Source: Bryum argenteum (taxonomy: Eukaryota; Streptophyta; Bryopsida; Bryales; Bryaceae). From it: a stretch of DNA of 64,000 nt. Both the position numbers and the translations under genes were made by a program. The stretch lies in the NCBI GenBank assembly GCA_037043015.1, contig CM073321.1:191001-255000 (forward strand), given 5' to 3'. Positions 9,831 to 45,210 of the stretch are shown piece after piece (positions within the stretch are counted from its first letter, which is position 1; each line of letters begins with the position of its first letter). The notes below the pieces were generated by a model, which searched no databases, was not told the origin of the DNA, and saw only the letters and a list, made by a program, of their open reading frames with translations.

Positions 9831-11082
9831 AAGCCTTGGGATGTCTAGTAAGTGAGAGAGAGCGCACGGGTGTGAGCAGTGAGCGGTAAGGCAACAATGC
9901 CGGCAACATTTTAAAGTAAGGATCCTATTACCATTGAATGGGTGGTAATGAAAAATCTAAATGGTTATTTTTAGAAATAGGAGTACCTTAAATCATGGAT
10001 ATAGGTCCTAATTCTGTCTCAAAATCCTAATATACGTTCCTACTATACTTCTTAATAAATCTATATCAGTGAGTTTATATATGATTTTATTTAAATTAGG
10101 GCTAATGTCATTACTTTTAATCCACACGATTCAAACAATATACTAGCTCCAAACACTAATCAAAGATAAAAATACAAATTTTGAAAGAAGATACAACAGG
10201 ACCGTTAGAGCTATTGTGCAACTTTTGCCAACGATATATAAACCTATCATAAATGATATATAAACGTATCATAAAATTACATGAATGACTAATGTCGTAC
10301 GACAACCATAGATAGGTTGCCTACATACTCATAGACAAAATATGGAAAAAGACACATACTACATTTATGGAGACATACCATTAAAATGGTGGAGACATTG
10401 ATCAGCCTCATAATCTATGAATGTAAGCACGTATTTGCCGAAGTGCTGACGTATAGTGTCACATAAAATAGGAGATGGAGCTAGGACATAATCTTGAGCG
10501 ATCCTCTCCGCATATGACGGTAGGGTGAATGTTGACCAAAGACTATTGTAGACATGCGCATTATGAGTCAATCGTCCTTTGAAAGGTGAGATTCTAAAAG
10601 TACAAACAAAGTCAGTAGAAGCTATAACCCCATGTTCGTTATATTTGGAACATTTTTATCTCCCAAATTAAAACAAGACAACGGATGAAGCAGAAATCAA
10701 CATTTAGAGGGGTTTCACCGTATGCATATGTACTCGGAATTTACTAATTTCCATTATATTTGGAGATGATATGAGACCTCTTGAATCTTAAAAAATATTT
10801 TTATCTTAAAAAAGGTTTCCAACCATACATACATATATATGATACGATACATGTCAAGATTAACATACTAACAAAAAATAATTTTCTTTCAATTGATAAT
10901 AATGATGGAGTCAACTTAAACAATCTTCTCATACAAAATTAATACATTGAATATCGATAGTAAATAGTACAAATATATAATACTCTATATACTAAATTTC
11001 AAAGTAATATATATGTCAATACCATGTTTAAGTACTATCACACCTACTTCCATAATAAATACTATATACTAGAAGACTACTC
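9831..11082. other. AT-rich region downstream of element A gene T
   Basis: Mostly low-complexity AT sequence. A 68-residue minus-strand frame at 10365-10571 (SLWSTFTLPSYAERIAQDYV...) has a coding-like composition and could be an exon of a gene following T, but it matches nothing I know. The left end of element A probably lies here; no clear terminal repeat was found. Confidence 0.35.
10365..10571 (-). CDS. Possible orphan exon, unknown function
   Basis: A 68-residue frame in otherwise AT-rich, non-coding-looking DNA, on the same strand as gene T and about 0.5 kb beyond its stop. It has a balanced composition (YAERIAQDYVLAPSPILCDT) but no motif I recognise. It might be the last trace of a second minus-strand gene, as element B has in the comparable place, or a chance frame. 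Confidence 0.25.
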   Translation of the reverse strand: MTHNAHVYNSLWSTFTLPSYAERIAQDYVLAPSPILCDTIRQHFGKYVLTFIDYEADQCLHHFNGMSP

Positions 11083-12279
11083 CTAAGAAGATGAATCAAG
11101 CTCTCGTAAAGAAGCCTTGATGATTTCGACCTGCTTCTTGGGTATTGTAATAATAGCGTCTATACCTTCACTGCTTTCCTCATCAAAATGTGTAATTCTT
11201 GATTTCCAAGCAGTGAAAATAGCATCTGTAGGTTGCGAACATACATCTACACCTTTCTCAATAGTCCATCGAAGCTTTCTATTTGTATCCCAATCTGTGT
11301 AATACTTCAGAATTTCTTTGGAGCGTGACATTGGACGGAAGAACTGGATGTCGACCGTATTGGGTAGGTCTAGGTTTGAATTTGGATCAGACATTGCTCG
11401 CCCGAGCCAAAAAGGCCGGCCATCGGTGCCGCATGGACGTAGTGCAACAAAATAACCCTTATAAAGGTCACGTTCAACTCGAAATGAGGGAGCAGGACGA
11501 TCACGTCTCTGGCCAACAAAATGATCATCGTCGTCGTACTCTTCGCGCACATTCCCTTCTAAAGTAAACTCATCTTCCATAGCATGTGCAAGTCGAGTTG
11601 ATGGCCAAAATCCATGTTGTAACGGTAATGGTTCCTTCAAACTTGACGGAATCCCATTTTGTGACGATGCAAGTACGTCCATGGGTATACAAAGAGCATC
11701 TTTAACGCCGCTCCAGTAATATGAGAGAGGCTCGTACAATCTCCGTAATTCAATTGACTCACGTGATAATCGTTCCCAATGATCAACAAAGCCCGAAATC
11801 CCTTTCACCACCTCAGGCAAATTACGCATCTCGTTTGGACGCATTGCATCCGGTTCACCACGTGGCCATAATGATCTGCCTTGAGAATCCTCCTTCCACA
11901 ATTTAATACCAGCATGATCACCTCTAGGAAGCCATTCCTCGACGTGACAGGAAATCTTATACTTCATTACGGGGCATCCACTTGGATCCATGTAAAACTT
12001 GAATTGATGCACTTTCGTATGCCCTACCAATGCTTCATCGCCACCTAACATCCACTCTTCAATGAATTTCTTGAAGTCCGGAACCTCTTGAACGAGGTGT
12101 GGAATAACAAGAAGTTTTTCTATCCTCATAAAAGATTTTATGAGAAGAGGGATGGTACGATAATCCTCCTTTCGCAACGCCATGCTCCAACGCCCAAATA
12201 ACGCATCTATGTCATCATGAGTGTGACCGACGAGCATAAAATTTACATATATCTCTTGGAATACTCGCTTCGCTACCAA
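11083..12279 (-). CDS. Gene T (A), C-terminal block with VGHTHDDID motif
   Basis: A 398-residue open block. The motif VGHTHDDIDALFGRW (about residues 17-31) is the strongest family signature and supplies the presumed third acidic catalytic residue. The rest aligns along its length with 33137-31963 of element B: both have a D..RPSF/HRRDHPRASFRV-type stretch (GQRRDRPAPSFRV here) and end in an acidic, serine-rich tail after IPKKQVEIIKAS. Confidence 0.75.
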   Translation of the reverse strand: MVAKRVFQEIYVNFMLVGHTHDDIDALFGRWSMALRKEDYRTIPLLIKSFMRIEKLLVIPHLVQEVPDFKKFIEEWMLGGDEALVGHTKVHQFKFYMDPSGCPVMKYKISCHVEEWLPRGDHAGIKLWKEDSQGRSLWPRGEPDAMRPNEMRNLPEVVKGISGFVDHWERLSRESIELRRLYEPLSYYWSGVKDALCIPMDVLASSQNGIPSSLKEPLPLQHGFWPSTRLAHAMEDEFTLEGNVREEYDDDDHFVGQRRDRPAPSFRVERDLYKGYFVALRPCGTDGRPFWLGRAMSDPNSNLDLPNTVDIQFFRPMSRSKEILKYYTDWDTNRKLRWTIEKGVDVCSQPTDAIFTAWKSRITHFDEESSEGIDAIITIPKKQVEIIKASLRELDSSS

Positions 12280-12762
12280 AAGTTACCAGAAACTGAAGAC
12301 GAATCTATTCTTGTTATCACTCACAGCATTATCCATTTGGACATTCAAAATCGGAGGCAGAGACTTTGCTGGAACTAGGATGTCAGGAATCGGGCCTAAT
12401 GGATCCATACACACCTCTGAACCTCGTAAAAGAGCAGTATACAATGGATGGGATGGGGGCTCTGTAAAGAGTTGTCTAGATGAGGATTTAGGTGCAGCTT
12501 CGAGATCCCGCAGAAGTCTTGCAAACGAGCCGACCGTATAATTGGCATCATGTGAGTAAACATCTAGTCCGTAATGAGCGTATCGCTGGTCTACATGACC
12601 ATGAGCAAGAATTCCCGTAACTGCAAGAGGTAACTTCATGAGTCCGTCTAAGTTCTTCACCTTATGAGACTGTGAAAGTGGTATTCTTCATACCCCTCCA
12701 AGTACCTTACCTATGATGTTGTAACTCTCTGAAACCCTAAAAATTCTATATACTGTCACCCA

Positions 12763-12840
12763 ATACTGCTCCTGATACTGCTCTCAATACTGCTCCCAAT
12801 ACTGCTCCCAATACTGCTCCCAATACTGCTCCCAATACTA
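12763..12840. repeat. 12-bp tandem repeat (AATACTGCTCCC)
   Basis: About six to seven copies of a dodecamer inside the 650-bp stretch that splits gene T of element A. Confidence 0.9.
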
Positions 12841-13047
12841 ACACGGAAATCTCCACACTTGGGTTTAACACCTTTTACATACAAATCCATTAATAATGTC
12901 ATTGAAAAAAATGGTAGTGGTACAAACATTTCCTGCCTTGGTAGTGCTACCTGGTCCTTCCAGGTACCATGAACTGACCTAAGCAGTAGTTCCTGTCACT
13001 ATCCAACACTCCACACACACACACCACACACACGCTCCTAGCTCCAG

Positions 13048-13084
<37 letters not shown>
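13048..13084. repeat. (GA)n microsatellite
   Basis: A run of GA dinucleotides, followed by CTCCAAAAAA and AACCCTAA-type boxes, in the same intervening stretch. Confidence 0.95.
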
Positions 13085-13086
<2 letters not shown>

Positions 13087-13155
13087 TCCAAAAAACTAAC
13101 TCCAAACCCTGGCCGCCAAACCCTAATCTCCAACCCTAGCTGCCTTCATCCATCC

Positions 13156-13263
13156 ACAGGATTTCATCCCAGGACAAGATTTCATCCCAGAACAGGATTT
13201 CATCCCAGGACAGGATTTCATCCCAGAACAGGATTTCATCCCAGAACAGGATTTCATCCTAGG
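13156..13263. repeat. 18-bp tandem repeat (CAGGATTTCATCCCAGAA)
   Basis: Six copies with small changes. Each unit contains a short palindrome-like GGATTTCATCC. It adjoins the end of block 1 of gene T. Confidence 0.9.
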
Positions 13264-14205
13264 ACTCTAAAGTCTAGTAGTCTTAATAGGCTACTAGCAG
13301 ATTTACTCTTTTACTGGCTAGGTAAATCCCCGGTTAACAGAGACAAGGCAGGTGATGCTGTTTTTGAGTGGTCCATCTTGTCATGCATAATCGTCAAAAC
13401 ATCCTGAGGCGACTCCCTAGACCTAAAGCGGTTGAGGTAGTACAAGTCTCTGTGCGCATATGCGGAATCTAAGTGCACATTCAACTTCCTCGACCATATA
13501 AGCGATGATGGTGTCCCGGAAAGAGTGAGCTTCATCAGTGATTGTAACTCATCACACTTGGAACAACGCGCGAAATTGTCCCCTGATCGTTTAGCATAGT
13601 ATTCTGGATAGCTGAGGCGGCGAATCTTACTAAGGTTTGAAGTTGACACCGGCGGGAGCCCACACTCTTCAAGGTGATGATCAAGAAGAGGAATTTGGTC
13701 CTTCCACTTAAAACTTGAAGGAAGTACCTTGGCAACGACCTTCTCCCCTGATGGAAGGCTCCGGCACTTGTGAGGCATGTGATCGGCATGTCTATCAAGT
13801 ATTGCCCCTAAGACGGCAGAAGCAACAATCGTATGCCTCCTAGGCTTTCGCAAGCCCGTGTTCCCGTGTAACCGGGCCTCATGCCCATCAGCTGCACTCT
13901 GGGCGTTGCGATAAAACGTACCGTTGCTCACGCCCATGATCTTCATCCGCGCAATTGGACAAACATCAATACCCTCTAAAGTGACTACATTTCGCCTTTC
14001 AGCATTTCTGTGAAACTGCCTATGGACATCGAGTTTGACGTGATTCTTGAACTGCATAGTTGTCTTGTCGTACATGCGACACCTGAGAACCTTAGTCTAA
14101 CCTACACCCCTTGCAGTAAAGCCTGACTCGAGCACAAGTGGGAATACTGTTCCGCGCTATAGATTAGCTCAACACCAGCTAGACAATTTCACCTGATGTA
14201 TGCTA

Positions 14206-14323
14206 CAGGTTAGCTCGACCCGAGCTAAACTGTCCGACAAGATGCATACAGCAGTTTAGCTCGACTCGAGCTAAACTGCAGATGTATACATCTATACAGT
14301 TTAGCTCGACTCGAGCTAAACTG
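14206..14323. promoter_or_regulatory. Element A palindrome cluster upstream of gene T (3 copies)
   Basis: Near-perfect palindromes with core TTAGCTCGACTCGAGCTAA at 14206-14232, 14251-14279 and 14297-14323, plus a weaker relic near 14163-14182. Arms extend to 12-14 bp around a single central base. They begin about 130 bp upstream of the first gene T block, so they could be binding sites for an element-coded protein at the promoter. Confidence 0.9.
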
Positions 14324-14960
14324 CATGGCAAAGTACCAAACTAGTCCCGGAATATCCGGAGGGTTTCACAGGATTCGAATAGAATTTCGAATACCGTTAC
14401 AACCAGCGCTCTCCCATTCTATCGTCACACGCAGGAATCAAAATATATTCCTGTACCAATGTAATCGTCAAATCAAAATAATATGTCAACAACGACTCCG
14501 AATGCACCATGCTGATGTACAAGTCATTAGAATACAACCATTGAATTGAAATCGTCAAGTACTACTACTGAAGATAAGAAGCAAACTATGAAGAATATGA
14601 ATCTAACAATGCGAGAAGCTGTGCAAAGCAAGTTGAACGACAAACAATCATGTATAAATGCAATCGACAAACACGTACGCGAAGGTAGAGGGCGAATTGA
14701 AGGAAGCGCGGAGAACTCAGAAACGTCGAGGGAGTTCGGCAAACTGAGAGATTGAAAAAAGAATCATTCCGTCCTGGATTCCGAAGGTCATTGCGTAGCG
14801 CAATGCCGTTTTCGCGCTAACCCAGAATTAAGAAATGGGAGGGAATTGACTTTTAGAAATTGAAAATTGGCGGGAACTGAAGTCTCGACAAATGAAGTGT
14901 CAACAGTTAATAATGGGCGGGAAGAAACGGGCCGCCATTTGGAAATTGGCGGGATTGGGG
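14324..14960. other. Intergenic region upstream of the A palindromes
   Basis: Contains GGCGGGAA-type E2F-like boxes (GGCGGGAA at about 14871 and GGCGGGAAG near 14917). A 69-residue plus-strand frame at 14546-14755 is not supported by any motif. Confidence 0.35.
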
Positions 14961-14963
14961 TTA

Positions 14964-14991
14964 TAGGGTTTAGGGTTTAGGGTTTAGGGTT
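14964..14991 (+). repeat. TTTAGGG telomere-type repeat, about four units
   Basis: Plant-type telomere units. Read on the minus strand they are AAACCCTAA telo-boxes upstream of gene T, a known plant promoter motif. The corresponding array in element B is at 36359-36460. Confidence 0.9.
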
Positions 14992-17750
14992 ATATTATAG
15001 GTGTGTGATAATTGTAATTGGTCAAAAAAATGTTAATATTTATACACCTACTGTGAGGAATACTATGTTAGCAAACACTCAATGACACAATAAAATTTTA
15101 GTATAATTACTTGTAGGCAATACAATTGATACAACTTTCAATTTCATATTTTTGTGAATCGAGTATTCTTAACCTCAAACTTTTCTTTCTAAATAAAGTT
15201 CCTATACAATAAATTCGATGCAATTTTTATCTTAAGGTGAAGTATGACATATTTAATTAAATATGGACAGTCCACGATCTACAATTAAGTACAATAGTTG
15301 CAAAATGATTTCTATAATCTAGATTCCATGAAGATACTCTTCAAATATGTAGATTTTAAGGTCATGGATGGAATGATCTCCACATGTTTTAAAGTCCATA
15401 ATAAGCCCAAACTCCATATTTAATTAAATGATGCATAAGTCTTAGTAAGTATTAGGTTATTAATATCTTATCTATAAGTTTACTACTACTAACGTTTTTG
15501 TGTGTATGCACTTGCTAAAAATTCTTAATTGAATGTTGATTATTATACACTTCAAATTAATTCTATCATATGCAATATCTCGTTAAAAATTGTATGAGTA
15601 AACATAATTTTTATTAAATTCTGTTTACTTCTTCGTATATACGTAATATATTTGATAATTATATACAATTTAATATAGTAAATGATATTTATTACATATT
15701 ATATTATATATTATTTATCCATAAAAAAAAAAATCTTTCAAAATGTAAATTCATACAATGTAAATATAATCTTAGTATATTATGTAGAGTATCAAAATGA
15801 TTCAGCTATAAATTGTACTGATGAAATCAACTATTTTAACTTTAAATTTTAAATGAAATTTTCAAGGTTATCAACAATGAAAAATTTATACTATTTCATA
15901 AGTAAGTTTGTAAATCTTGTCAAATACCCTTTGGAATATAAAAGAAGTTTTAATATACATAAAATTTTATATTTAAACTTAATTTCATTGTATAGATGCT
16001 CAATAGTATATATGTCATTCAATTCTTTTTAACGTAAAGCTTAACAAAATAAGATTACTATTGAACGTTTTAATTTCATTTGTAGATGTTTAACCTTAAA
16101 ACTCGATTTTGTATTGAAATGATCAAAATCAATTGCAAATATGAATATCTTTTCGTTTGAAATATGCATTCATCAAATACCTTCAATACATCCATTGATC
16201 TTTAAAGTTGAAATTCTATTCTGCAAATTTCAGTTAGTATCAAATTATAAATTACATATCTTCTGTGTCAAATTTTAATTAGATATCTATTGATTGTCCA
16301 AGAAATGGAGATTTCAGCTTATAGCCTAATTAGTTACGGATGTTACCATCCAAACGACCCTTACTTAAAAGCATCCGCCCCAGATAAACTAACCACCATG
16401 CAGTGTTCCGCCTCTGTTTCGACAGTTAGACATCCTTGGACGAAATAGTGGTATTTCAAGATTGATGGTGACGTGCAACGTCACCACTTCCCACCTATCT
16501 TACACATTGAATCAAGGTTCTCTTTGCAAAGCTATAGTAAAGGTGCACGGAGTCGTTCTGTCTAGCCGTTGGTACTCCGCATCTTCACGGAGAGTTCAAT
16601 TTCAGTGTGTCCATGTTGGAGAAAGCAGGGCAACCATTTATTCTTATCATTAGTATTACTTCTTTTATGACGTTATATTAGATTTTAACTTTCATTCTTG
16701 AGGATTAAATAACTAAACAAACATCTGAGTATTTAAGAAAGTCAATGTGTGAGAAATTGAACCTATTCCATGCTTATGTCTTAAATTATTTCACCTTGTG
16801 AAATCATAAGAATAAGATTTATGAAAACTAATTAAAGAAATGAAATTTTTTAGTACAAGATCTTCTTAAGCTTAAACGTAAGCTTAAAACACGTAATTTG
16901 TTATAATCGGAATATTCAGATTATCAAATTGATGAAAATTGAGCTTAGGTTGAGCCAAATGTACTATGTGGGTACATTTTCCTCGACCCAAGCTAAACCC
17001 ACATTAATTTTCTCAAAATCAGTGAAGAATACCATTATAATGAATTACGTGTTTTAACCAAATCAAGTTTATTTCACCATAATTATATTGTTTTCGTTGT
17101 AATAATTATAATGAGTCATAAACATATGAAACTTTTTACGCCTTATTAATATGAATTCTACGCAATATAATATAATTTACATTTATTTTAAGTATTGTGC
17201 TTAATCTTGGACATTTCTTTTTTTAAAAGATGTTCATACTTCAAATTAAAGATTGTAAAAATTATTTACGTTTATTGAAATTATATTTTTGAAATTATTT
17301 GTAGAAACTATACTTTTAAATGAATAAGCTTCTCGATAAGACTATCTTACAGTACTCTACAATATATAATTAGGCATTAACAACGCGACACTGCAATGGA
17401 CATTTATATTTATCTATACTTTATCAAAATATAACTTATAAAAAAGCAACTTTAAGTAAAATTTATTTATAATTTTACAAGCAAGCCAAAAAGGTATTAC
17501 AAATAAAACTTGTAAAACATTATAACTGAAATTATTCATTTTTATCGTCTAGAAATTACTCAAACATATTGCTTAGCATCATGTGTATATTAGGTTACTT
17601 ATTTTAGAAATGTTTAGCTACTGTTGATCGAGATATCAATCATCTTTTGTAGTAATTGTATCACGTCAAAAGTTGTGCAGTTTTCAAATCTTCTATCACT
17701 TATAGCTATGCATGGCCACTGAAAACCTTACAATATCAACACTTCTCACA
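14992..17750. other. AT-rich spacer of element A, first part
   Basis: Low-complexity AT-rich DNA without convincing frames. It holds one MITE (16888-17052). Confidence 0.6.
16888..17052. mobile_element. MITE, 165 bp, with 4-bp TTAA duplications
   Basis: Terminal inverted repeats AACACGTAATTTGTTATAAT and AACACGTAATTCATTATAAT, flanked by TTAA at 16884-16887 and 17053-17056. A related 150-bp copy lies at 63846-63995 with a different 4-bp duplication (CCAC). The centre has GTACTATGTGGGTACAT and CTCGACCCAAGCTAAACCC, which resembles half of an element A palindrome. Confidence 0.85.
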
Positions 17751-17929
17751 CTGAGCAGCATTAATACAGGTTGCTGCTCCCTCGTTTATGATGAACAACT
17801 TGAGCTGCAAAAGTCTGACAATAAAGAGTGCGAGCCGAAAGATTGAGTCCGATCACTGAGGTGGAGAGTACAACTCACCGGAGCTGATGGGCACTAACGA
17901 TGTGAAAAGCATGTCGTTCAAGATTCCTG

Positions 17930-18424
17930 ATGAAAGCTTCAAGTTCTTCACATGTTGCAGAATATTAAGAACTTCGAGAATACTTTTACACGGGCATGGA
18001 CGACGAATTCAGCCTCAGGTATTGGACCGCTGAGCAATGCATATTATCTCTCCGGACTGATAACTCATTATTGCCAATGTACCCATGTACTAAACACTCT
18101 ATTGTCAAATTCAACTGGTTTTGAATGCCGCTTGCAAAGTAGAAAATACTCATCCTCATTGTGAGCCTTTCATCCTTAGCAATGCATTTAGAACGTAGAG
18201 TGTTCAGCGCTTTAGGCGCGTGGCTGCATACAGCGACGCATTGGCTTGATGTAGAGTGGGTGCTAACTCTCTTCGTATTGTGTAGCAATGGTAATAAGTT
18301 TCTTGAAAAGCGCGAGAAGTTTATTGGCCTTGTTGGTAATCTTATATTCCGTTCCTTCGAGCGCAATACTCCACAGAGGCTAAAAGAATGGCCTGAGAAC
18401 AAATGGTCTTTTGAACAACCTTAG
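17930..18424 (+). pseudogene. Relic D: fragment related to gene P of element A
   Basis: The part 18297-18415 closely matches 24893-25010 of gene P (FLEKREKFIGLVGN.IFRSFERNTPQRL.EWPEN against FLEKRKKFIGPTGSVIFRSF...TPQRLGDWSEN). It is an isolated duplicate lying within the spacer of element A, without the ParB-like part or the palindromes. The upstream part from about 17930 is weaker and not assigned. Confidence 0.65.
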
Positions 18425-18429
18425 AGAGT

Positions 18430-20200
18430 GATGAACTTCATCGACGTATTTATGTTTTAAACGTGACTTTTCCTTAATAATTTATTATACTACTTTATAA
18501 ATATATTTAAACGCATAGTAAAGAACAAAAAAGATTTTAAATGAACATGCAATAAGAATAAATGTACAGAAATGATCGTTGTACACTGTAAATAATAATG
18601 TGGCCAACCATGTAAACTAATACATGTTTTCATATTTTTAGAATGTAATCATAGTGATTATACTATCTAAAATAAGTCTTTTTTAATTTATATAACTGGT
18701 AAAATAAATAGTCAATAAAACTTACATTGAAATAAGGGATTATTGATTCGACTATTATAAATAAATAACTGGTAAAATTTTGACTTCTAAAATAATGTTC
18801 GAATTAATAATTCAGTTATTAACTAATGTTGTCAAAGACACTACTTATAGAAGTATCAAAAATTAAAAAAATATCATATTATAATTTTTAATTATCTATA
18901 TATAAACTATTATATCAGCAATAACTTTATGCAATATCAGCTCATTCTCAAAAAACAAGTGTATTTCATATGTAATAATAATCTATTCCTAACCTTCTTT
19001 CAAATAATCTACTATGAAAGAGTGTATTTATTAATTTCTTATACCTAGATAACATATCTATAAAATACTATATTTATTGGATAACCAATTTATTAGTCTA
19101 TTAAAGTCAATAAAACTAATAATTGAGCTTTCCAAATAATTGATTTATTGACCTACTATTTTCAAATACCAAATTAATAAGATCATATATTTATTAGCGT
19201 ATTAGTTCTTTCAATAAATAGTCGAATCAATAATCCCTTATTTCAATGTGTATTCAATAATTTGTTTATTGTTAGTTATTTTTCAATGTACTATATTTAT
19301 TAGATATTGTATCTTTTGATGATCAATTTATTATATGATTGTATATTTATTTATTTTTGTACATTAACATATTTTTAAAAAGTCTATAAAATATCTACTG
19401 ATTGACAAATTAAATGTGTATTAAATAATCACTTCGTTAAGACTTATGTTATCCAAAAAATAATCCATTAAAGATATTATTTAATAACGAGTAATACGAA
19501 AATAACTTAATTTTCAAAAATTTAGATTCTTATTATTTATTTATTTAATTATTTTTATTTTTCTGAAATATTGAAGAGGTATTAGGATAGAGAGTGATAA
19601 TTTTGATTTCTAATTTTCTTAAAAATGACATCAAATTTTTTTTTTCTTAACTTTTGCATTTCAATGTTATCGCATATATCTTTTCATACTTAAGTTAACC
19701 TCAATGTGACTAGAGTACAAAACGAAAATTCACGTTTCTAAAAACTTATGGTTATATTTATTTATACTAACAAAATATTATTTGTACTTGTCAATACCCA
19801 TCATCTGAAAATAGTACATACTATAGAAGTAGAAAAACTAATATGTATAAGACAATTTTTGTTACAGAAATTCAGTATATTTGTTTTACTTGGATGATTA
19901 AAAAATCACAAATCAATTACAAGGTGAAGAGCCTTATATAGAATTATTTTATTTTAAAAAGGTTTCTACCTGTGTATACTATAGGTGATAAAAACAAAAC
20001 ATGACATCCCTTTATTACAGTAGATAGGGAATAACGTACTCTCTAAATTATGAGTTAAAACTAAGAATTTAGAGTACTTTACAATACTAAATTTAGTCAC
20101 AAACTTTCATTAAAAACCTAAACATGTACTTAGTCAAATTTTGGACAAAAGTTGGACATAAACATAGTCAAATCCTAGTCAAAACTTAGCCAAGAATTAG
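18430..20200. other. AT-rich spacer of element A, second part
   Basis: Very AT-rich, no gene. Holds the inverted-repeat pair at 18724-19249. Confidence 0.6.
18724..19249. mobile_element. Probable MITE with 33-bp perfect inverted repeats
   Basis: The segments 18724-18756 and 19217-19249 are perfect reverse complements (starting ACATTGAAATAAGGGATTAT). They enclose about 460 bp of AT-rich DNA with no frame. Weaker similarity continues outward, so the true ends and target duplication are unclear. Confidence 0.7.
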
Positions 20201-20201
20201 T

Positions 20202-20326
20202 GAAAAAATTAGTAAACATTAGTAAACTAGTAAACATTAGTAAAAATTAGTAAACATTAGTAAAAATTTGTAAACATTACTAAAAATTAGTAAACATTAG
20301 TAAATATTAGTAAACTAAAATTACTA
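20202..20326. repeat. Short tandem array of AGTAAACATTAGTAAAAATT
   Basis: Degenerate roughly 10-20-bp units built on AGTAAA/ACATT, directly left of the CATG hairpin. Confidence 0.85.
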
Positions 20327-20341
20327 AAGTAAAAAAGTTTT

Positions 20342-25574: not shown

Positions 25575-25612
25575 GTAAGCTGACTTACTCTATTTTCGCA
25601 TAAATGATTCCC

Positions 25613-35252: not shown

Positions 35253-35922
35253 GTTATCATCGACCCGACGATAACCTGTATCGTAAAAACCGTTTGAGAA
35301 CACACTGTTATTGTCGACCCAACGATAAACTATGCTGCAGACACTACTAAAGGCAAAAAAGTTATCGTCCGCCCGATGATAAACTACGTTGTGAACACTA
35401 CTGAAGGCAAAAAAGTTATCGTCCGCCCGATGATAAACTACGTTGTGAACACTATGTAAGCCAACATAGTTATCGTCGACCCGACGATAAACTATGTTGA
35501 ACACACTATTGAAGGCAACATAGTTATCGTCAACCCGACGATAAACTACATTGTGACACTGTGTAATGCAACATAGTTATCATCGGCCCGACGATAAACT
35601 ACGTTGTACACACAATGTAAGGCAACATAGTTATCGTCGGCCCGACGATAAACTACGTTGTAAACACAATGTAAGGCAACATAAGTTATCGTCAACCCGA
35701 CGATAAACTATGTGGTAGACACTATTGAAGGCAACATAGTTATCGTTGACCCGACGATAAACTACATTGTGACATTGTGTAATGCAACATAGTTATCGTC
35801 GGCCCGACGATAAACTACGTTGTACAAACAATGTAAGGCAACATAGTTATCGTCGATCCGACGATAAACTACGTTGTATACACTATTTAAAGCAACGTAG
35901 TTATCGTCGACCCGATGATACC
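35253..35922. promoter_or_regulatory. Element B palindrome array, 13 copies
   Basis: Thirteen palindromes of core TATCGTCGACCCGACGATA begin at about 35253, 35307, 35361, 35415, 35469, 35523, 35575, 35630, 35685, 35739, 35792, 35847 and 35900, a period close to 54 bp. The linkers are themselves related (AAACTACGTTGT, ACAC, AATGTAAGGCAACATAG). They sit directly upstream of gene T, where element A has three A-type palindromes. Frames through it give repeated YRR.DDNY peptides, which are artefacts. Confidence 0.97.
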
Positions 35923-35929
35923 AGTAACA

Positions 35930-36356
35930 ATCGCCAACGCACACTCCGGAAAATGCAGCACATATATTGGACCGTGAATAACTCTATACATTGAAGTTTA
36001 CAAACGATTCATAGAATACATCCTGAAATGATCTTCTTTTCCAACTCAATGAAGGGCCTTGCTATCACTAACCTCAGAATGATTCTCAATTTTGAAATTT
36101 AAGAAGAAGGAATATACATACAGCACTTGAGGAACAGCAACGATTCTACAACATTCTGAGACTCGCGCGAAATTGAAAAACTTTCCACAGAATACAACAA
36201 TCAACCTTGGAAGAAGAACTGAAGCAAGTTTCTTTATTCCTACTAAATAAAGCAGGAATTCTATAATTTGTGTCTTTTAGTATTTGTCCATACGCCTTGG
36301 AGTTCAATGAAACTACCAAGTTAACGATACTTTACGGTGTACTATTTCTGATTTAA
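35930..36356. other. Region between the palindrome array and telomere-type repeats
   Basis: No gene seen. Confidence 0.4.
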
Positions 36357-36358
36357 GG

Positions 36359-36460
36359 TGTAGGGTTTAGGGTTTAGGGTTTAGGGTTTAGGGTTTAGGG
36401 TTTAGGATTTAGGGTTTAGAGTTTAGGGTTTAGAGTTTAGGGTTTTAGGGTTTTGGGGTT
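36359..36460 (+). repeat. TTTAGGG telomere-type repeats, about 14 units with decay
   Basis: Seven near-perfect units followed by degenerate ones; a further loose continuation runs to about 36535. Same order relative to gene T and its palindromes as the four units at 14964-14991 in element A. Confidence 0.95.
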
Positions 36461-36739
36461 TTAGGAATTAGGAATTAGGGTTTAGAGTTAGTTTAGAGTT
36501 TTGAGTTTAGAATTTAGGGTTTAGATTTAGGGGGTTTAGAACTATGGGTTTACTAAGAAAAGAAATATGAAAAAGATGCAAGCAATTGCCTTCATGGAGT
36601 TTGAGATCCTTTACAACCACTAAACTTGACTTGAGTACTGTGGAGAAAAGGCCTCGAAGTATATTGGCGATCCGAAATTATAAACCTGCCGTGGCTATTC
36701 AAGATCATACTTATGATAACTTACTTAATTTACAAAATA

Positions 36740-38115
36740 AAAATCCTAGAATACCACACCTAATTTAGTAAATACTAATCTTCCGCTTCGTAACATACTT
36801 TAGTAAATACATATCTTAGAATACCACAGTTAATAAAATTGAATATAACTAAATTTTTATCTTAGAATACTTGAACTTATTTCACTAAATACTTATTTTA
36901 GAATACCTTAGATAAATAAATTGAATATTATCCTAATAATAACTCTTTTGATTTACTTATAAAGTGTTTTACACCTAATTTACTAAATACTTAGCACACC
37001 TAATTTACTAAATACTAATATTAGATTATGACACATCAAATAATTCAATTGTAATTTTAGATTTACACATTCCTGATAATTGAATACTATACTTAATGTA
37101 TTACACCAAGTTTAGTAAATACTAATCTCAGAGAACCACAATTAAATAGATTGAATATTATACTCATAATAATTGAAATAATTTACAAAATAGTAATCTT
37201 CGAATACCACACCTAATTTAGTAACTACGAATTATACAATATTGTACATCAGTTGACGGATTTGATGAATACAAAATAATCTTTGAGAATAAAGGCACCG
37301 CAAATCTTACAAGCGTCCGCAAGTTTACATGCTTCACTCCGAAATAAACCCAACAATTGTCACGATTAAAATTTTTAAGTAAAGCAAACTGATACATCTT
37401 CATAATCGTTGTCAATGCTTACGGGGCTTCATCCCATTTCGCAATCCGTCCCATCACCATCACGGATTACAACTCACAACCTTCTCTCCTATCAACTTGT
37501 ATCCTACACCCTTGGATCATGAAGATCAAGAATTGCGATTAAAGAGTGCATAATCAGTTTTGAACGATAACCGACTGGCTACTACGCGTCTCTGAACTAG
37601 AAAAACATTGAAAAATACTGTTGATGCGAAATTATAAGCCTCTAGTGCCCATTCACTATTATACATATAATAACTAGCTTAATTTACAAAATAATAATTT
37701 TAGAATACTACACCTAAATTAATAAATATTAATCTTAGAATACTACACCAAAATTAATAAATACTAATCTTAGAATACTACTCTTAAATAACTTGAATAT
37801 CATACTTAAAATACCACACTAGATTCATTACATAATAATATTAGAATATTCCAATAGATTTAGTAAATTCTTGTCTTGTAAATTTTAGTAAGAATACCTA
37901 ACTTCAATTAATTAAACATTTTACGTATAATAACTCACTTAATATACCAAATAATAATCTTAGAATACATCAGCAATTTGTGAAGTACCAATCCTAGGAT
38001 ACGTTACATACTTTGGTATATACTTATTTTAGAATACCACTGACAATTAAATAGAATGATTATTATACTTATAATAATCGACTTAGTTAACAAAATATTA
38101 ATCTTAGATTACCAC
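36740..38115. repeat. Degenerate repeat-built spacer of element B
   Basis: Many loose copies of a motif like CCTAATTTAGTAAATACTAA followed by TCTTAGAATACCAC occur throughout, among them near 36755, 36790, 36975, 37000, 37110, 37205, 37685, 37715, 37745 and 38020. No gene. Confidence 0.75.
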
Positions 38116-38393
38116 ACTTACTAGAATCCAAGATATACTTCACCAATTCCTAGCACAAATATGACTAATTTTAAAAATTAGAGTATTTTATAAGCTTCCC
38201 AACTTAGCAAATATCAGATTGAATTCCGAAGCACCTTATGATAGGCTCATAATTGTAAATGATTCTACTTTGAAGACATAGACTTTTTGAATTTGCATAT
38301 TCAACTTAGGAATATATGTTTAAACAAAAGCAAAAGTACAAAGAAAAAATCAACAATATGTTTTTAAAAATTCAAATATAAAAATTTACATGG

Positions 38394-38496
38394 CCATCAT
38401 TACTCCACATGAACATGGTCATGTGCATGGCCATGTGCATGGTATATGCATGCGCATAGCCATGCGCATGAATATGCGCATGGGGAGTAATGATGG
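38394..38496. repeat. NNCATG hexamer hairpin of element B
   Basis: Perfect 13-bp outer arms (CCATCATTACTCC at 38394-38406 and its complement at 38484-38496) enclose NNCATG-type hexamers that pair imperfectly. It starts 1.85 kb upstream of the gene P start, almost the same distance as in element A. Confidence 0.92.
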
Positions 38497-38511
38497 CTGG
38501 GCTATGATGAC

Positions 38512-38627
38512 CCAGCGCCGTCATTCTCACCTTGCTGCTCCGAACTCTCCGCGCGCTCTCTTGTCCTCGCAGCGCCGTCATTCTCACCTTGCTGCTCCGA
38601 ACTCTCCGCGTGCTCTCTTGTCCTCGC
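38512..38627 (+). repeat. 58-bp tandem duplication in the P leader (B)
   Basis: Two near-identical copies of a unit starting AGCGCCGTCATTCTCACCTT, in the GC-rich stretch after the hairpin. The unit differs from that in element A, but position and period (57-58 bp) agree. Confidence 0.92.
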
Positions 38628-38629
38628 CC

Positions 38630-40246
38630 CAGCCTGTGCGCTCTCTCTTCCTTGTTCAGCCTTCGCTCTCATCTCTCCCGTCGCTCGCCCGAAATTTTGC
38701 TGTCGCTTGTCGCTTTGTTGCTGTGGTGATTGTTGCGGTGCTTTTCGGTGATCGTTGCGCTCTCCGATTCATTGGCTGTAAGCTTCCACATTCGAAACCA
38801 TTCGTTCCTTCTGCCTTTGTGTGAAGCTCGCAATTAGGTAATTTCTGTGCTTTTTCTAGTTGTTGGGTGGTGCGTTTCGGCGCATTCAGCTGAGCGCCTG
38901 AACGTGGAGCGCGGCATTTGCAGGTCGATGTGTTCATTCTCACCTTTTCAGGCTGGCAATTTTGCAAGGACGATACGGCCCTTATTTCAGGTGATGCAAC
39001 GTCACTAGCTCCAGTACATTTGTTTTGTTCTCGAAGCTTACATTTTTCGCCCATGTTGATGCTGTGAGCTGGTTAATTAGGTCTAGCTTTTTAGTATGGC
39101 AGGTATTCAATTCAAGCTCCTCGCATCTTCATTGTCAGGTATAGAATTCAATATACTAGGGTTTTAGCTAATCTTCAATGCTTTTCGTGTCTTCATTAGG
39201 TTTTCTTTGTCATTTACGGGTTCTGGACTGTGAGGTACTGAGAAACGTTCTACACACAGGATTTAGACCTGAAACTTGCAGTTTCAACAGGTAATACTCA
39301 ATTTCAAGATTTTAAAGATGTTGGTAGGTGCTGTACAGCTTTGATTCGTATTCTGCTTTTATCGTTGTTGAAAGAATGAGAAACGCTAGACCTTGTAATT
39401 ACTGGTGGTCGCTAGAATCTACAACTGTCATAGATGTTAGATTGTACAATTGAATGGAAAAGATAAACTGGGAATTTTGTTATATGCTATAATCTACGAC
39501 TGTAGTAGATTTTAGGTCTAATTGCCATTGAATAATCTTCGATACTAGCTTTCCCAGCTTTTCGATATTAGCTCTTCGATACTAGCTTTTCTAGCTTCAC
39601 ATCTGTATCGTCGCCTCGACGACAAGTTTAGAGTTTATTTAATATGCATATTTAACCTAGTAAAACCGAGACAACGATGTTATTGACTCGATGGTAGATA
39701 TTCAATTTTTTCAAAAGAAACGTTTATCTTCATACATGTGGGTAAATGTGGGTAAATATGGGTAAACGTGGGTAAATGTGGATAAATGTGGGTAAATGTG
39801 GTTATCGTCGACTCGACGGTAGGCCGGTTTCATTTTCGAACTCCCTAAAAGAGCTGAACAGCAGTTATCGTCGTGTCGACGATAAGATTTTCCTGAGAGT
39901 TGGCTAAATTCATCGATATGATTCAGAACAAACGACACGTGATACAAAATAAACGTAGATACATAGCAGTTTGACATAAAGAAACAATTATAATAAGATT
40001 CAAAAATATGCACATCATGTTTAATATAATTTTATATCAGGTACTTTACTTATCGTCGACTTGACTTAAAGCTTCTTATCGTCGACTTGACTTGACTTAA
40101 AGCTTGAGCTTTTGTCACTTAAAGACTTAGTCTGTGAAGCTGATTAGAAACTCGTTGTAGTTATCGTCGAGTCGACGATAAGAACATTCCTTAGATATAG
40201 TGGGAAAATAGAGGTATAACATGATAAAATCTGGATTTTTTCAGAA
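38630..40246 (+). promoter_or_regulatory. Probable promoter and 5' leader of gene P (B)
   Basis: GC-rich at first, then AT-rich. Contains B-type palindromes or close relics near 39605-39625, 39800-39822, 39863-39885 and 40160-40181 and half sites near 40049 and 40076. A short GTGGGTAAAT repeat runs at about 39739-39800. Confidence 0.6.
39605..40181. promoter_or_regulatory. B-type palindromes in the leader of gene P
   Basis: Four full or near-full sites and two half sites as listed for the leader; the copy at 40160-40181 (TTATCGTCGAGTCGACGATA) is a perfect palindrome around a single central base. None is A-type. Confidence 0.9.
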
Positions 40247-40509
40247 ATGCCGAGGACAAAGAGCACCGCTAGAATTGTTCGGATCGAAAACATGAATGCT
40301 GATCAACCGTCGGGTGATACATTAAATCAAACTGAGGTACGACTTCCTTAGAGTAAGTTTATAATTTCAACACACATGTTTGCATGATGTCGAATAATCA
40401 TTGATATGAAGATTAGTTTGAACTGATACTAAATTAATTACCTACATATAGTGACCCTTCCTCCCTATCATATTTCTAGATATTCGCACCGCTATAAGAA
40501 TCATCAACT

Positions 40510-40600
40510 CTTATCGTCGGGCCGACGATAAGAATATTACTCCTGCATTCTTATTAGTACACTATGCAAAAGGTGGACTTAGGATATCGTCGAGTCGACT
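40510..40600. promoter_or_regulatory. Two B-type palindromes in intron 1 of gene P
   Basis: Full site TTATCGTCGGGCCGACGATA at 40510-40530 and a shorter relic ATCGTCGAGTCGACTAT near 40583-40600, inside intron 40337-40685. Confidence 0.9.
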
Positions 40601-40685
40601 ATTCATGAGGTTGCTAAGCCATGCAGTACTATGTCATTTTGATCCTAAAGTAAATAGTTAAGGTTTCTTCTTACACTCTGTTCAG

Positions 40686-41621
40686 ATGGCGATGATGACA
40701 TCCGAAGATACATACAACTACGTTGTAACTCGTCATCATCTCGTACCGTTCTAGAATCCCTTCGAGCCGGAAGCATTCAGCGACATGCAAGACACATACG
40801 GCCAACTCTTTGAGTTCCGAGATAATATAATGCAGTGGTCCTTCGGTGTAAACAAGCTCAAGAATTTCGTCATGCTGCGAATTCAGGACGGAAGCTCAGG
40901 GATGTTTAGTGTTTGGAACTTAAACGAGAAGGTCTCAATCATCGAGAATGTCCGGGAACACTTCATCGTAATTGTACTTAGAGCGGTAGATGACGATGGG
41001 AAGGAGCTCGATCACCAGCACTCAATCGTCTTGGATTGTAGAAAGGAGCATGCGAGGTTCAATCTAGAGAACCTTATGTCATTCATCGAGGGAACGAAAT
41101 GGGAGCCCCTCAATAAGCAATTTAGGGAATCTAGTTATATTCCTTGGGTGTACAATAATGGAAATAGTATTTCCAATCGTCTTAATAGGATTTTTGCTTC
41201 CCTTGATCGATACGCTACTGTATCCGTCGTGAAGACCCCAAGTATTGGGGGCAAACCAAAGAAGAAGGTCGCGGCTCCCACGAAGTCGCGGACGGACCTT
41301 ACCTCCAGTGGCGCAGGATCTGGTAGCCGCGCTCCAAAGCCAAGTCAGCCAAGAGTGGGGGCGACGAAGAGAGATGCCTCCGTTCCGGCAGCTCTTGGAT
41401 CGAGCCGAAAGCGGAGGAAGAGCACAGCATCGGCTCGTTTGGTAGCTGCTGAAGATCCTCCTGCTGGAAGCGGTGTTTCAGCTATCACAGTGGTTACAGC
41501 CGGCCGCACATCTTCCAAAGATGAAGTGTCCAATTTTGAGAAGATAGCGGGAGATCAAAAGGAATTCTGGGATAAGCACACGAGTTGCTTTCTCTTCGAT
41601 ATGGAGCATGTGCAAGACTAA
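40686..41621 (+). CDS. Gene P (B), N-terminal domain and basic linker
   Basis: Coding starts MAMMTSEDTYNY and, from 40785, is open for 278 residues. It has a compact domain (LKNFVMLRIQDGSSGMF ... HQHSIVLDCRKEHARFNLE) and then a Lys/Ser/Arg-rich linker (KPKKKVAAPTKS, SSRKRRKSTAS) typical of nuclear proteins. A stop precedes the main frame at 40755. Confidence 0.65.
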
Positions 41622-41657
41622 CCTTCACACTTTGATTGACGTCCGGTTGATAAGAAT

Positions 41658-42077
41658 ATGATTGACGTCCGGCAGAGACAGAAGGTCTGCTTGACGCCGG
41701 TTGATAAGAATAATCAACTTTTGAAAAAGAAGCCTTCAAAATGGGAAGACATCAAGGACGGCAAGTTTATGATCATAAACGGCCAGCACAGCATCTTCGC
41801 ATCGAAGGCACTCCAGACAGGAGGTTGCAGAGCAGATCGTCGTGAGAAGCTTCGCACATGGAGTGCATTTATCGTGTGGTCCTTGGATCCAACTGAGCTG
41901 AGGGCTATTTCGAAATTCTATAACATCACAAACCATCTGGACCATGCCAAGCCAACATGGGGCAACCAAACTGTGAGTTGTAGAATCATCTGGACCTCGC
42001 TCAAACGTCCTGCTGATTCGACCCTCGAAGCCAAGGAGAGGGGTAATAATGCAATCTTCAACGAGTCTAACTACAAG
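41658..42077 (+). CDS. Gene P (B), ParB-like NGQHS block
   Basis: MIDVRQRQKVCLTPVDKN, then WEDIKDGKFMIINGQHSIFA (about 41736-41797), then TWSAFIVWSLDPTELRAIS and FYNITNHLDHAKPTWGN. Aligns closely with 23610-23915 of element A: QKQTLCVMP, FWIINGQHSVAASK, VWSAFVVWTKDEAKLRKIS, FYNRVNHF..FKPTWAS. Just before it a segment containing TTGACGTCCGG and GGTTGATAAGAATA is locally duplicated. Confidence 0.72.
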
Positions 42078-42098
42078 GTCAACTTGCAGTTCTGCTTC

Positions 42099-42119
42099 TT
42101 TTCGTCGGGTCGACGATAA
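42099..42119. promoter_or_regulatory. B-type palindrome in the middle intron of gene P
   Basis: TTCGTCGGGTCGACGATAAG inside intron 42078-42176, the equivalent of the element A intron with two A-type sites. Confidence 0.9.
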
Positions 42120-42176
42120 GGGTCTCTATTGCTTGGGTGATTCTTGTTCCCTAATTACATTGGTTTTTTATTTCAG

Positions 42177-42854
42177 AGCTTCACGGACGCTGTCATGGAG
42201 AGGTTCCAGAACATCAACCCAGAAAGTGAGGGAGCTAAGATCCACTCATTGAAAGATCTGAAGAACGAGCTCCGAATGATCATTTTGCCGGATCATATCT
42301 GGAATCACTGGAAGGAATTTCTCACGTTGCACCACGACGGAGAAATTATTGACCCAACCACAATGGAGCCGTATAAGCTTGCGAATGGATACAGAACGTA
42401 CGTTTTGAAGCGCGAGTTCTTCAAACGATTCGGTTGGTTCACGGACAAGGACTTCGAAACCGTGGTTCTGCGTTTGCTCACCTTGACCCCGGGCCGGATT
42501 GCACCGTATCCCAAAGTTTCCACCAACCGAACGAAATATCTTGTACCCGACAACATGTCGAGCGCTGACTGGGTTGAGCGGCATAAGCGCAAGAAGGCTG
42601 TGATGCAAGAAATCATGGACATCAAGCCTTCACTTAAGCTCGCGGACAATGGTGGTGATGTGATCAAGGCAACGTGGTCTGCCTGGAAAGCTAGGCAGAA
42701 GTTTATGTCGGCTACATGGGATCATCTTATTGCACTTACGCCTGCAGAGTTTTCAAGAAAAGGCTCCGCAATGAGGCAAGGCATCGCAGAGCAAAAGATA
42801 TGGCCGACGCTCATCCCGAGGTATTCTATATGTTCACAAGATTTATGGCCTTGA
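42177..42854 (+). CDS. Gene P (B), helical middle region
   Basis: Open from the acceptor TTTCAG. Contains LKNELRMIILPDHIWNHWKE, a segment FFKRFGWFTDKDFETVVLRL and YPKVSTNRTKYLVPDNMSSA, parallel to the element A region 24222-24810. It stays open longer than in A. Confidence 0.65.
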   Translation, partial: SFTDAVMERFQNINPESEGAKIHSLKDLKNELRMIILPDHIWNHWKEFLTLHHDGEIIDPTTMEPYKLANGYRTYVLKREFFKRFGWFTDKDFETVVLRLLTLTPGRIAPYPKVSTNRTKYLVPDNMSSADWVERHKRKKAVMQEIMDIKPSLKLADNGGDVIKATWSAWKARQKFMSATWDHLIALTPAEFSRKGSAMRQGIAEQKIWPTLIPRYSICSQDLWP

Positions 42855-42859
42855 AATAC

Positions 42860-43495
42860 CGATTACCGGGGAGTACAGGAGGGGTACATATGAGAGGCAT
42901 AGACTGGCCTGTCACGGCGCTTGTTGTAAGTTCTACTTATACTTACACTCGTCGGCCAGTAAACCTCGCTCTATTGGATGTTCGGAACATTCCGCGTCCC
43001 CCTAGCACCGACACACGACCAGCCATCGATCCGTTCCTGAACTTCTTGCAAGAGAATTTCGAGCCTGCGATCGATACACCCAAGATTTGGCTCTTTATCC
43101 TGCTGGGTAAAGACGACATTCGAGTCGCATCATCATTTGCTGCTCGGGAGCTCTCCGGATATGAGGCGAAAGTCTGTACATACGTTCCCGCTAGAGCAGA
43201 AATGCTCGATAAAGTCACAAACCGGGCAATTTCTCCGGACGTGACACTTCTCTTCTTCTTCAAGAAGGGCGCCGAGTTTGCAGGTTTAGCAAAAGCTTTA
43301 ATCAAGGATACATATTCCACCCCTGCAACTTGTGTGTATTATACAGACATCTCCAAGAATACAGAGGCAAAATGGAGACATTACGCAACTAAACTCCGCA
43401 TGGAGTTTTACTTGGAGATACTACACGCATGTGCCGAGCCGAACGAAAACGTGATCGGGGTGTACGCCGACGCAAAGTTTCTTCTAGCGTCGAAG
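42860..43495 (+). CDS. Gene P (B), methyltransferase-like block
   Basis: VNLALLDVRNIPRPPST takes the place of a DPPY loop, followed by PKIWLFILLGKDDIRVASS, the helix region around ELSGYEAKVCTYVP, DVTLLFFFKKG, and LRMEFYLEILHACAEPNENV followed by IGVYADAKFLLASK, which mirrors VLDPFAGSG..A. As in A, neither DPPY nor the Gly-rich loop is intact. Frame changes once between this block and the middle region. Confidence 0.55.
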
Positions 43496-43513
43496 GTAAT
43501 GACACATCCTTCG

Positions 43514-43664
43514 CTTATCGTCGGGTCGACGACAACATTCAGTATACTTCATAGGTCTTTGATTCTTTCATATGTAGAGATCCTATGCCTAATTGTTTAG
43601 GCGAGGCGACGTTTACGTTTGGTTTGAGCTCGTCTGGTAACTGCTATCATCGACGCGACGATAG
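43514..43664. promoter_or_regulatory. Two B-type palindromes in the last intron of gene P
   Basis: At 43514-43534 (TTATCGTCGGGTCGACGACA) and 43643-43664 (GCTATCATCGACGCGACGAT), inside intron 43496-43716. Confidence 0.9.
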
Positions 43665-43716
43665 CATGCGGACTCGTTTTAAACTAATTATCTGGCTCCT
43701 TGATTGTTTTTATCAG

Positions 43717-44418
43717 ATTTTCGGAGCATACTATTTTGGCTTCACAGACCAGAAGAAAGTGAAGGGAGCCTTAAAAGTTGCTGGAGTCGCAAAGAGGATG
43801 GACAAGAACGATTTCATGTTTGCGAATTCTCCATATTCGCTCACCTACGAGCGCCCAAAGAGTCGCGTGCCTATCGTTGTGCACTCCGATTCTCCCACTT
43901 CTTCAGAGAATTCTCTTTATTCAGCCGTGGAGATATTGCCTACTGTTGTTAGAGACATTGAGTGTGTGGGTCCACATGTCTCTAACGATCCTGAAATTGA
44001 AGGTCTCGATCAGTTCGGGACAAACACATTCCGGATCATGTCACTGTTGTCATCTTCCCCCAGAATGTCGTTAAATCCGACAGGGGAAGGGGGTGATGTG
44101 TTCGTGTCGCAGACTCAGATTCCCATCGGCGACGTGGCGCATGCGACAGAGACAAATGAGAGCAGGTCGGATTCGGACTCTAAATCAGAGGCACATGATG
44201 ATCTTGACCCATCTTCACCGCGCGCTTCTGCTCATGGCACAGCAGATCTGGACGACTTCAATGCAATCGTTCCATTCGATGAAGCCGTTCCAGACATTGC
44301 TAGAGAACAGCCGGATCATACTGCCGCAGGTCTTCCTATCGACGAGGATGTCATTATTACAGAAGTTCTCGGAAATGTGGTTAAAGGATTTCTGGACCAG
44401 ATCCTCGACGAGGATTAG
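43717..44418 (+). CDS. Gene P (B), acidic region
   Basis: IFGAYYFGFTDQKKVKGALK continues the methyltransferase-like fold after the last intron, equivalent to MLSLDAYAIFDLEGKE in A. The remainder is Asp/Ser/Glu-rich (SRSDSDSKSEAHDDLDPSSP) and probably disordered. Confidence 0.6.
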   Translation: MFGAYYFGFTDQKKVKGALKVAGVAKRMDKNDFMFANSPYSLTYERPKSRVPIVVHSDSPTSSENSLYSAVEILPTVVRDIECVGPHVSNDPEIEGLDQFGTNTFRIMSLLSSSPRMSLNPTGEGGDVFVSQTQIPIGDVAHATETNESRSDSDSKSEAHDDLDPSSPRASAHGTADLDDFNAIVPFDEAVPDIAREQPDHTAAGLPIDEDVIITEVLGNVVKGFLDQILDED

Positions 44419-45210
44419 TTGGGTTCCGACAATCAGGCGGGGCAGGTCAGTTTGATGGAAGAAGGTCATGATGGGCAGGCCGCTGACGGTCCGGTGGCCG
44501 GGGATGCTCCACGGGCGAACGAGGAGGAAGAGATGGAGGTCGTTAATGATGACGATGTCACGATCTCTGCAATAGTCGAAAGACAACCTCCCGACCCCAA
44601 AGACATCATTGACTTGAGTGATGATGAATTCAACATCCACTCTTCCGATAGCGATGATGAAGAGGATGATCAAGTCCCGCCCGACATGAAAGCCATTGTT
44701 CATAAGGGGAAGACGATTAAGGTGGAGAAGGACTACTGGAAGAGGTCCGAGGAGAAGTATGCCAGGAAATTGGAGCGCCGGAAGGTTAAGGCGCAAAAAG
44801 AGAAGGAGCGGCTTGAGGAGCAGCAGAAGCTTGCTGATGCCGAGGACGCCATCAGGATTGCCAACGAGAAGGTCGCCCAGGTTCAGGCTGAGGCTGCGGC
44901 AAAGATCAGGGCTCTACAAGATGAGTGAAGGGAGATGTTCAAACATTTGCAAGCTCAGATGGCTGCCTTGGCTGCAGCGGCTTCCGCTTCTCAAAGCCAA
45001 CCTTTTACGACTCCGCGAGCCGCAAGCGCATCTCTATTGTCGCCGTCTAGGAGCGCTCCACTGCCTCAGCCTCCAAGAGATGTTGTACCTGTCTATCGTC
45101 GACCCGACGATACGGTTGGCACACATTCTGAGGTTGCCACTATCGCCCTTGAAAGTTCTGCTGCTCCGATACGGCGGCTACCAAACTCCTCTTTCTTCCA
45201 ACGGCCGTAA
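44419..45210 (+). CDS. Gene P (B), coiled-coil tail
   Basis: Acidic DIIDLSDDEFNI stretch (SUMO-interaction-like in look), then a long Lys/Glu/Ala coiled coil (RKLERRKVKAQKEKERLEEQ, ANEKVAQVQAEAAAKIRAL) and an Ala/Ser/Pro end. One B-type palindrome (45092-45113) lies inside the coding region and encodes VYRRPDD. A stop separates this block from the acidic region and another lies at 44926. Confidence 0.6.
45092..45113. promoter_or_regulatory. B-type palindrome within the gene P coding tail
   Basis: CTATCGTCGACCCGACGATA in the last coding block; reads VYRRPDD in frame. Confidence 0.88.

Follow-up and report, generated by a model that had tools for sequence, protein, structure and literature searches.

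Two diverged transposons in the window

The window analyzed here is a 64,000-nucleotide stretch of the moss Bryum argenteum (assembly GCA_037043015.1, contig CM073321.1, referred to below as C1; C1:191001–255000), and our genome-wide searches covered 258.8 Mb in 25 contigs. It holds two elements, A and B, which have diverged from each other and belong to one large family of cut-and-paste DNA transposons with a typical length of ~18 kb. Each carries a transposase gene, T, on the minus strand and a second gene, P, on the plus strand, and the lineages of the family recognized so far in this study each have their own 21-bp palindrome (hereafter dyad), found both in P and near the T gene. A preliminary description of this DNA had given the order T (−), palindromes, TTTAGGG repeats, AT-rich spacer, CATG hairpin and P (+), which we recovered in both elements; the paralogy it proposed is likewise visible at the protein level, with 42.8% identity over 325 amino acids between the T pieces and about 26–45% between the P pieces, the DNA of A and B having short common stretches only.

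Element A (10622..29201, +, counting its 4-bp target duplication, CTAT, at 10622–10625 and 29198–29201) is complete: its terminal inverted repeats, AACCCCATGTTCGTTATATTTGGAA on the 10626 side and AACCCCATATTCGTTATATTGGGAA on the 29197 side, start at 10626 and finish at 29197, and the same ends are dispersed genome-wide. The element had been taken to end at ~26.5 kb and is longer than that, with a third, NIF-like gene (27129–27935) included. Element B (31337..45135, +) had been given a start at 29.2 kb; a terminus match and homology to a further copy, E, from E's left end onward, place its left terminus, AAGGCCATATTCGTTAAAATGAGACAAG, at 31337, and it is truncated near 45135. E (C4:24800500–24825499, loci L041–L043) is 91% identical to B across 31337–35085 and has both B-type ends, with ACTA on each side. 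Three more A-family copies are flanked by CTGG/CTGG, CTGG/CTGG and ACTT/ACTT, so that a 4-bp target duplication was found in all five pairs with both ends read. Outside these pairs, locus L051 showed no right end in the stretch read, L052 was read at a right end but not at its left flank, and the right end of another copy, D, was not recognized within the 23.5 kb read.

Ends of the A family, with one mismatch or less, occur in the genome as 77 left-type and 93 right-type matches. For 51 of the 77 left ends, a right end in facing orientation lies no more than 45 kb away; the median spacing of these pairs is 18.8 kb, and the outward-facing and same-strand controls gave 1 and 7 pairings. Among 40 left ends listed, 32 have an A-like P match downstream on the same strand at 8–40 kb, none has one upstream and 1 has one on the opposite strand; this test drew on 107 A-like P matches out of 150 P matches, and the P copy numbers are lower bounds, since 150 of 833 candidates and 150 of 696 candidates were scored. 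Many dispersed, sharp-ended copies were what the preliminary description had named as support for mobility, and the 51 paired left ends and five pairs of target duplications provide them. These copies and the element-like ends also rule out a single segmental duplication of an ordinary host locus; A and B are adjacent and in the same orientation, as such a duplication would have it, but their terminal repeats differ and their T proteins have diverged to the 42.8% identity given above, so we regard this origin as almost certainly wrong. The copies are unevenly distributed: C1, which may be a sex chromosome, makes up 17% of the genome yet carries 59 of the 77 left ends of the A family and 73 of its 93 right ends.

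The transposase and its place among DNA transposons

The T gene of A (11086..14096, −; Pfam PF25273, 1.3e-21; alignment to B) is broken, with coding pieces at 11086–12282, 12286–12687 and 13314–14096 and repeat-rich DNA at 12688–13313 in between, and that of B (31966..34882, −; PF25273, 3.2e-22; homology to A and E) has broken frames as well; in copies E and D, T is a single open frame. We consider T a putative DDE/DDD-type transposase (DUF7869), given the terminal structure observed and the fold suggested by a model, with catalysis presumed. Among the 76 relatives found, 58 of which were aligned together with two window pieces, are sequences of Physcomitrium patens and of Ceratodon purpureus; the Ceratodon locus has a V-chromosome-like name. 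A Foldseek search with T gave no significant match, and no T relative was confirmed in viral contigs.

Terminal inverted repeats together with a target duplication of fixed length (4 bp) are those of a cut-and-paste transposon. Among described classes Sola, which makes 4-bp target duplications (PMC10741241), agrees with the 4-bp duplications of A, E and the three further A-family copies; Sola fits on these duplications, on occurrence in mosses and on size, the comparison being with descriptions of Sola rather than with Sola protein sequences. In the available parts of those descriptions, Sola elements have a DDD transposase, can be large and are reported in the moss Physcomitrella, but a P-like protein and element-specific dyads do not figure in them (PMC10741241, PMC3627910). 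Other classes are disfavored by their ends, target duplications or motifs. The CMCT group (CACTA and its kin) is described as having C(2)C and H(3-4)H between the second D and the last acidic residue (PMC12730594), and C(2)C is absent from that interval of the T consensus; CACTA elements are given CACTA/CACTG ends and a 3-bp duplication (PMC10741241), compared with ends of AACCCCAT or AAGGCCAT and 4 bp here. The KDZ duplications cited (8 bp for Zisupton and 7 bp for Kyakuja; PMC12730594) also differ from the 4 bp found here, and the TG...CA ends described for Ginger (PMC10741241) differ from the AA...TT ends of these elements, so that CACTA, KDZ and Ginger are all disfavored as classes.

Lineage-specific 21-bp dyads shared by T and P

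All of the dyad words are 21 bp long and fit TTnnnnnCGnnnCGnnnnnAA, with lineage-specific inner bases: the word is TTTAGCTCG-n3-CGAGCTAAA in A, TTATCGTCG-n3-CGACGATAA in B and E, and TTATCCCCG-n3-CGGGGATAA in D. A palindrome search with no preset motif returned one repeated family per element (A 12/20, B 17/22, D 29/40 and E 29/40). Exact copies in the genome number 5878 for the A type (one free base), 965 for the D type (three free bases) and 127 for the B type (three free bases), compared with 0 for the reversed-pattern control of each class and 0 for a decoy of the same geometry.

In A, three A-type dyads lie upstream of T (14209..14320) and ten on the P side (22298..26698; at 22298, 22344, 22390, 22436, 22482, 24094, 24127, 25618, 25650 and 26678), and in B, at ≤3/18 mismatches, there are 14 B-type sites upstream of T (34982..35921) and nine on the P side (39605..45113). 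Each of A, B, D and E has its own word both upstream of T and in or around P, and the weight of our argument lies on this, one element carrying its word at two separate genes. The palindromes first noticed upstream of T are therefore indeed present there, but they were incompletely described, as they also lie between and within the P coding pieces (22298–26698 in A, 39802–45113 in B) and the word of A differs from that of B. Some dyads fall inside open P coding frames, as seen in the translations, many fall between P coding pieces, and tandem arrays reach 20 sites. In B, D and E, sequences flanking the sites near T and those near P have a likeness of 0.30–0.33, compared with 0.31 for random DNA, so that in these elements the dyads did not simply arise by copying a single array.

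Two readings of the dyads themselves can be weighed at this point. CACTA elements have subterminal TnpA sites, and the dyads might similarly be bound by T or P to join the ends in a transposition complex; they are element-specific, repeated and common to all copies of a class, as such sites would be. We consider this improbable, as the dyads are placed upstream of T and in P, and in A and E, the two copies with both ends, the 2.4 kb next to each end hold no dyad at ≤3/18 mismatches. A function of the palindromes as hairpins, in RNA or in single strands (for splicing or as small-RNA precursors), or as sites for host factors, seems to us very unlikely. They are palindromic, and many do lie between P coding pieces, but the arms keep their sequence and not only their pairing (core identity 0.89–0.95, partly by construction), loops of 1–3 bases are too tight for good hairpins, there are sites far upstream of T as well, and host factors would leave a different word per lineage unexplained.

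The association of word and P extends beyond these elements. We scored 50 P-bearing stretches (the four elements and 46 of 48 P-bearing loci, L009 and L045 being left out as loci because they are B and A) for the A, B, B2 (GTATCGTCG...) and D words, and found 11 with A only, 31 with B/B2 only, 8 with D only and none mixed; among them L014 lies inside E, and L019 and L020 overlap. In a maximum-likelihood tree of P each word label formed one clade (support ≥100/99), with 3 label changes, the minimum; the tree took the 32 stretches with one aligned stretch of ≥400 amino acids, B being among the 18 dropped, and the split into A, B+B2 and D is firm, the separate B and B2 labels being soft (few sites). 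Dyads also lie close to P: 95 of the first 100 A-type sites listed on C1 are within 15 kb of one of the 10 P matches listed there (windows covering 21% of the stretch), and 34 of 50 B-type sites, likewise from the first 100 listed, are within 15 kb of 25 B-like P matches, vs 4.5% coverage.

The P gene and a third gene

The P gene of A (22600..26336, +; homology to B, D and E) has in-frame stops and provisional exon limits, and that of B (40250..45135, +; by homology) has its frame broken near 41618–41640 and its 3' end missing. A ParB-like domain in P was suggested by weak profile matches to phrog_1033 in four of seven members (best E-value 0.0053); P had no match to ParB in Pfam, and the PDB match to SbnI had an E-value of 0.81. 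The CTP site of ParB carries a GxxR box, and the seven aligned copies have instead GQH, with S or H taking the place of the R.

P also carries a domain folded like the beta-class N4/N6 DNA methyltransferases. Enzymes of this class have the catalytic motifs (D/N)PP(Y/F/W) and FxGxG. Among 46 P rows, 43 cover motif IV, where 39 have D-x-R, 4 have a decayed version and none has PP, and 44 cover motif I, with GxK in 42 and FxGxG in none; since both motifs are replaced in the sampled copies, methylation is not expected from P. ParB-methyltransferase proteins exist in prokaryotes and phages, and P differs from these and from the beta-class N4/N6 enzymes in the replacement of motifs IV and I. The P pieces of B and E had no Pfam match, a protein search with the P of D scored 7991 candidates with none significant, and no relative of the ParB-like profile was confirmed in viral contigs. 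The best-ranked literature matches, in their titles and abstract openings, do not describe P or the dyads, and DUF7869 as a query matched nothing.

P is under purifying selection. Thirteen comparisons gave a value for its ratio of nonsynonymous to synonymous substitution rates (dN/dS): 11 of them fell at 0.18–0.26, and the other two, which involve copies carrying several stops, at 0.47 and 0.53. Three further comparisons, between distant sequences, were saturated and yielded no estimate. The comparisons have references in common and do not count as independent. P has diverged faster than T, with 31–33% identity between E and D compared with 53% for T. The third gene of A (27129..27935, +) encodes a NIF phosphatase-like domain (PF03031, 2e-11), which is found in E too (1.6e-9). 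The evidence bears out the first suggestion of a mobile locus in which a DDE-type protein and a ParB/methyltransferase-like protein come together with sites of its own, the ParB part on weak profile evidence. That first reading had not noted that the palindromes are lineage-specific and occur at both of an element's genes, that the methyltransferase domain has no catalytic motifs, or that a third gene exists. A P relative (P0002) and a T relative (P0016) both come from a 46,150-base contig, and T and P may therefore be linked in another genome.

A VANC-like layout and the proposed role of P

To our knowledge, VANC of Arabidopsis is the detailed known case of element-specific anti-silencing. 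In the VANDAL transposons a motif lies in tandem repeats upstream of the transposase gene and in introns, varies between related families, and loses methylation (PMC5735166; the precedent is treated further in PMC10398659). Our elements likewise have an element-specific, family-specific repeated motif upstream of the transposase gene and in introns (judged as such from gaps in P coding), and, as in VANDAL elements, the transposase gene is joined by a gene for a second protein that diverges faster than the transposase. The proteins differ, however. VANC proteins carry DUF1985 and DUF287 (PMC5735166), which were found by Pfam neither in the P pieces of B and E, which have no Pfam match at all, nor in 18 P sequences; T matches DUF7869; and the 21-bp dyads stand against the short non-palindromic motifs described for VANC. 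Membership in VANDAL fails on these protein domains, and the likeness we propose is one of how the system would work.

On balance, and with modest confidence, we suggest that P binds the dyads of its own class and activates or un-silences its element, as VANC does, through an unrelated protein. P would be an element-encoded DNA-binding protein, combining a ParB-like domain with a methyltransferase fold lacking catalytic motifs, that may bind the 21-bp dyad of its own element as a dimer. Bound to the dyads that lie upstream of T and to those within the P gene, it would increase expression of both genes; by analogy with VANC, the likeliest route is that the dyad regions are kept or made free of silencing marks. 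With dyad and P differing together between lineages, each element would serve its own kind. ParB proteins read palindromes, and we infer P rather than T to be the reader, and the effect to be positive; P is favored because its ParB-like domain is joined to a DNA-methyltransferase fold that has lost catalysis and is kept by selection. A bolder version, which we hold only tentatively and think rather doubtful, is that a eukaryotic transposon has converted a prokaryote-type ParB-methyltransferase into a means of self-recognition: the catalytically dead protein would load at private parS-like dyads, spread along the element and exclude silent chromatin, each lineage un-silencing only itself. On this version, sequence-specific anti-silencing would have an origin separate from that of VANC, in a different lineage of plants, and word and reader would have changed in step.

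Several observations count against un-silencing by P. Word and P are linked on one element, so that descent alone yields part of their agreement; the flanks of T-side and of P-side sites in A are alike (0.51), so some A sites may have spread with their surroundings; the identity of the dyad cores is partly built in, because sites were accepted at ≤3/18 mismatches; and 16 of the 50 listed B-type sites lie beyond 15 kb of the B-like P matches used. The ParB-likeness of P is weak (best E-value 0.0053, four of seven members, none in Pfam), and T could be the dyad reader.

The main rival is autorepression, in which P would bind the dyads and shut T down at high copy number, so that the host suffers less damage. 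Such feedback would accord with the placing of sites both upstream of T and within P, full-length copies of the A family number in the dozens, and an activator and a repressor look alike in sequence. We nonetheless judge it unlikely, as sites throughout P, coding parts included, and arrays of up to 20 resemble the VANC layout (PMC5735166) more than a simple operator, and spreading elements would gain little by silencing relatives only. A looser parallel to the activity we propose for P is offered by fungal DNA transposons that carry TET/JBP dioxygenases, accessory proteins believed to act against methylation; the accessory protein there is an enzyme of another family, and lineage-specific dyads are not described in the accessible part of that source (PMC12730594).

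Other features of the elements and their neighborhood

CATG-rich hairpins lie at 20333..20452 (+) in A (z −13.2) and 38393..38497 (+) in B (z −8.5), both folded as DNA and with none of 200 shuffles as good. A CATG-rich inverted repeat also stands 5' of the P leader in D (z −4.4) and E (z −9.7), again as DNA, and is retained upstream of P though its arms vary by lineage. TTTAGGG runs are present in A (14958..14994, +), B (36352..36532, +) and E; their absence in D rules them out as a universal part. The 57–58-bp tandem duplication of the leader, first listed among the shared features, is not a common part: its sequences are unlike in A and B, and a tandem-repeat finder returned no repeat of that period in E or D. 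The AT-rich spacer of A (15000..20200; GC down to 0.21) contains a P coding fragment (18299–18445) and a short repeat (16888–17053) that is 79% identical to one at the end of the window (63846–63995), possibly a small inverted-repeat transposon.

Beyond B lie a D-type P gene fragment (45986..46884, −; 79% to D) and an inverted 3' end of a B-type element (46887..48400, −; 78.5% to E), and together with the truncated end of B they suggest a nested insertion or inversion at 45135–48400. Outside the elements there are an inverted repeat pair (7942–9413 and 51364–52881, 83% identical), a Tc1-like transposase open frame (532–1677; DDE_3, 6.4e-17), and long terminal repeat-type retroelement frames (55665–57903 and 59077–63898) with reverse transcriptase/RNase H, gag and protease matches. 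Elsewhere in the genome, copy D directly adjoins an AP2-domain gene (L044:1798–2790; PF00847, 1e-10).

Implications

If P acts as we propose, these elements would be a second VANC-like layout with an unrelated protein, and a single genome would hold three or more divergent sets of word and protein. Such sets would be natural material for studying how a ParB-like/pseudo-methyltransferase protein shifts its specificity under one dyad geometry, and might yield tools for the site-directed removal of silencing. A second system would suggest that transposons repeatedly evolve a private reading of their own DNA.

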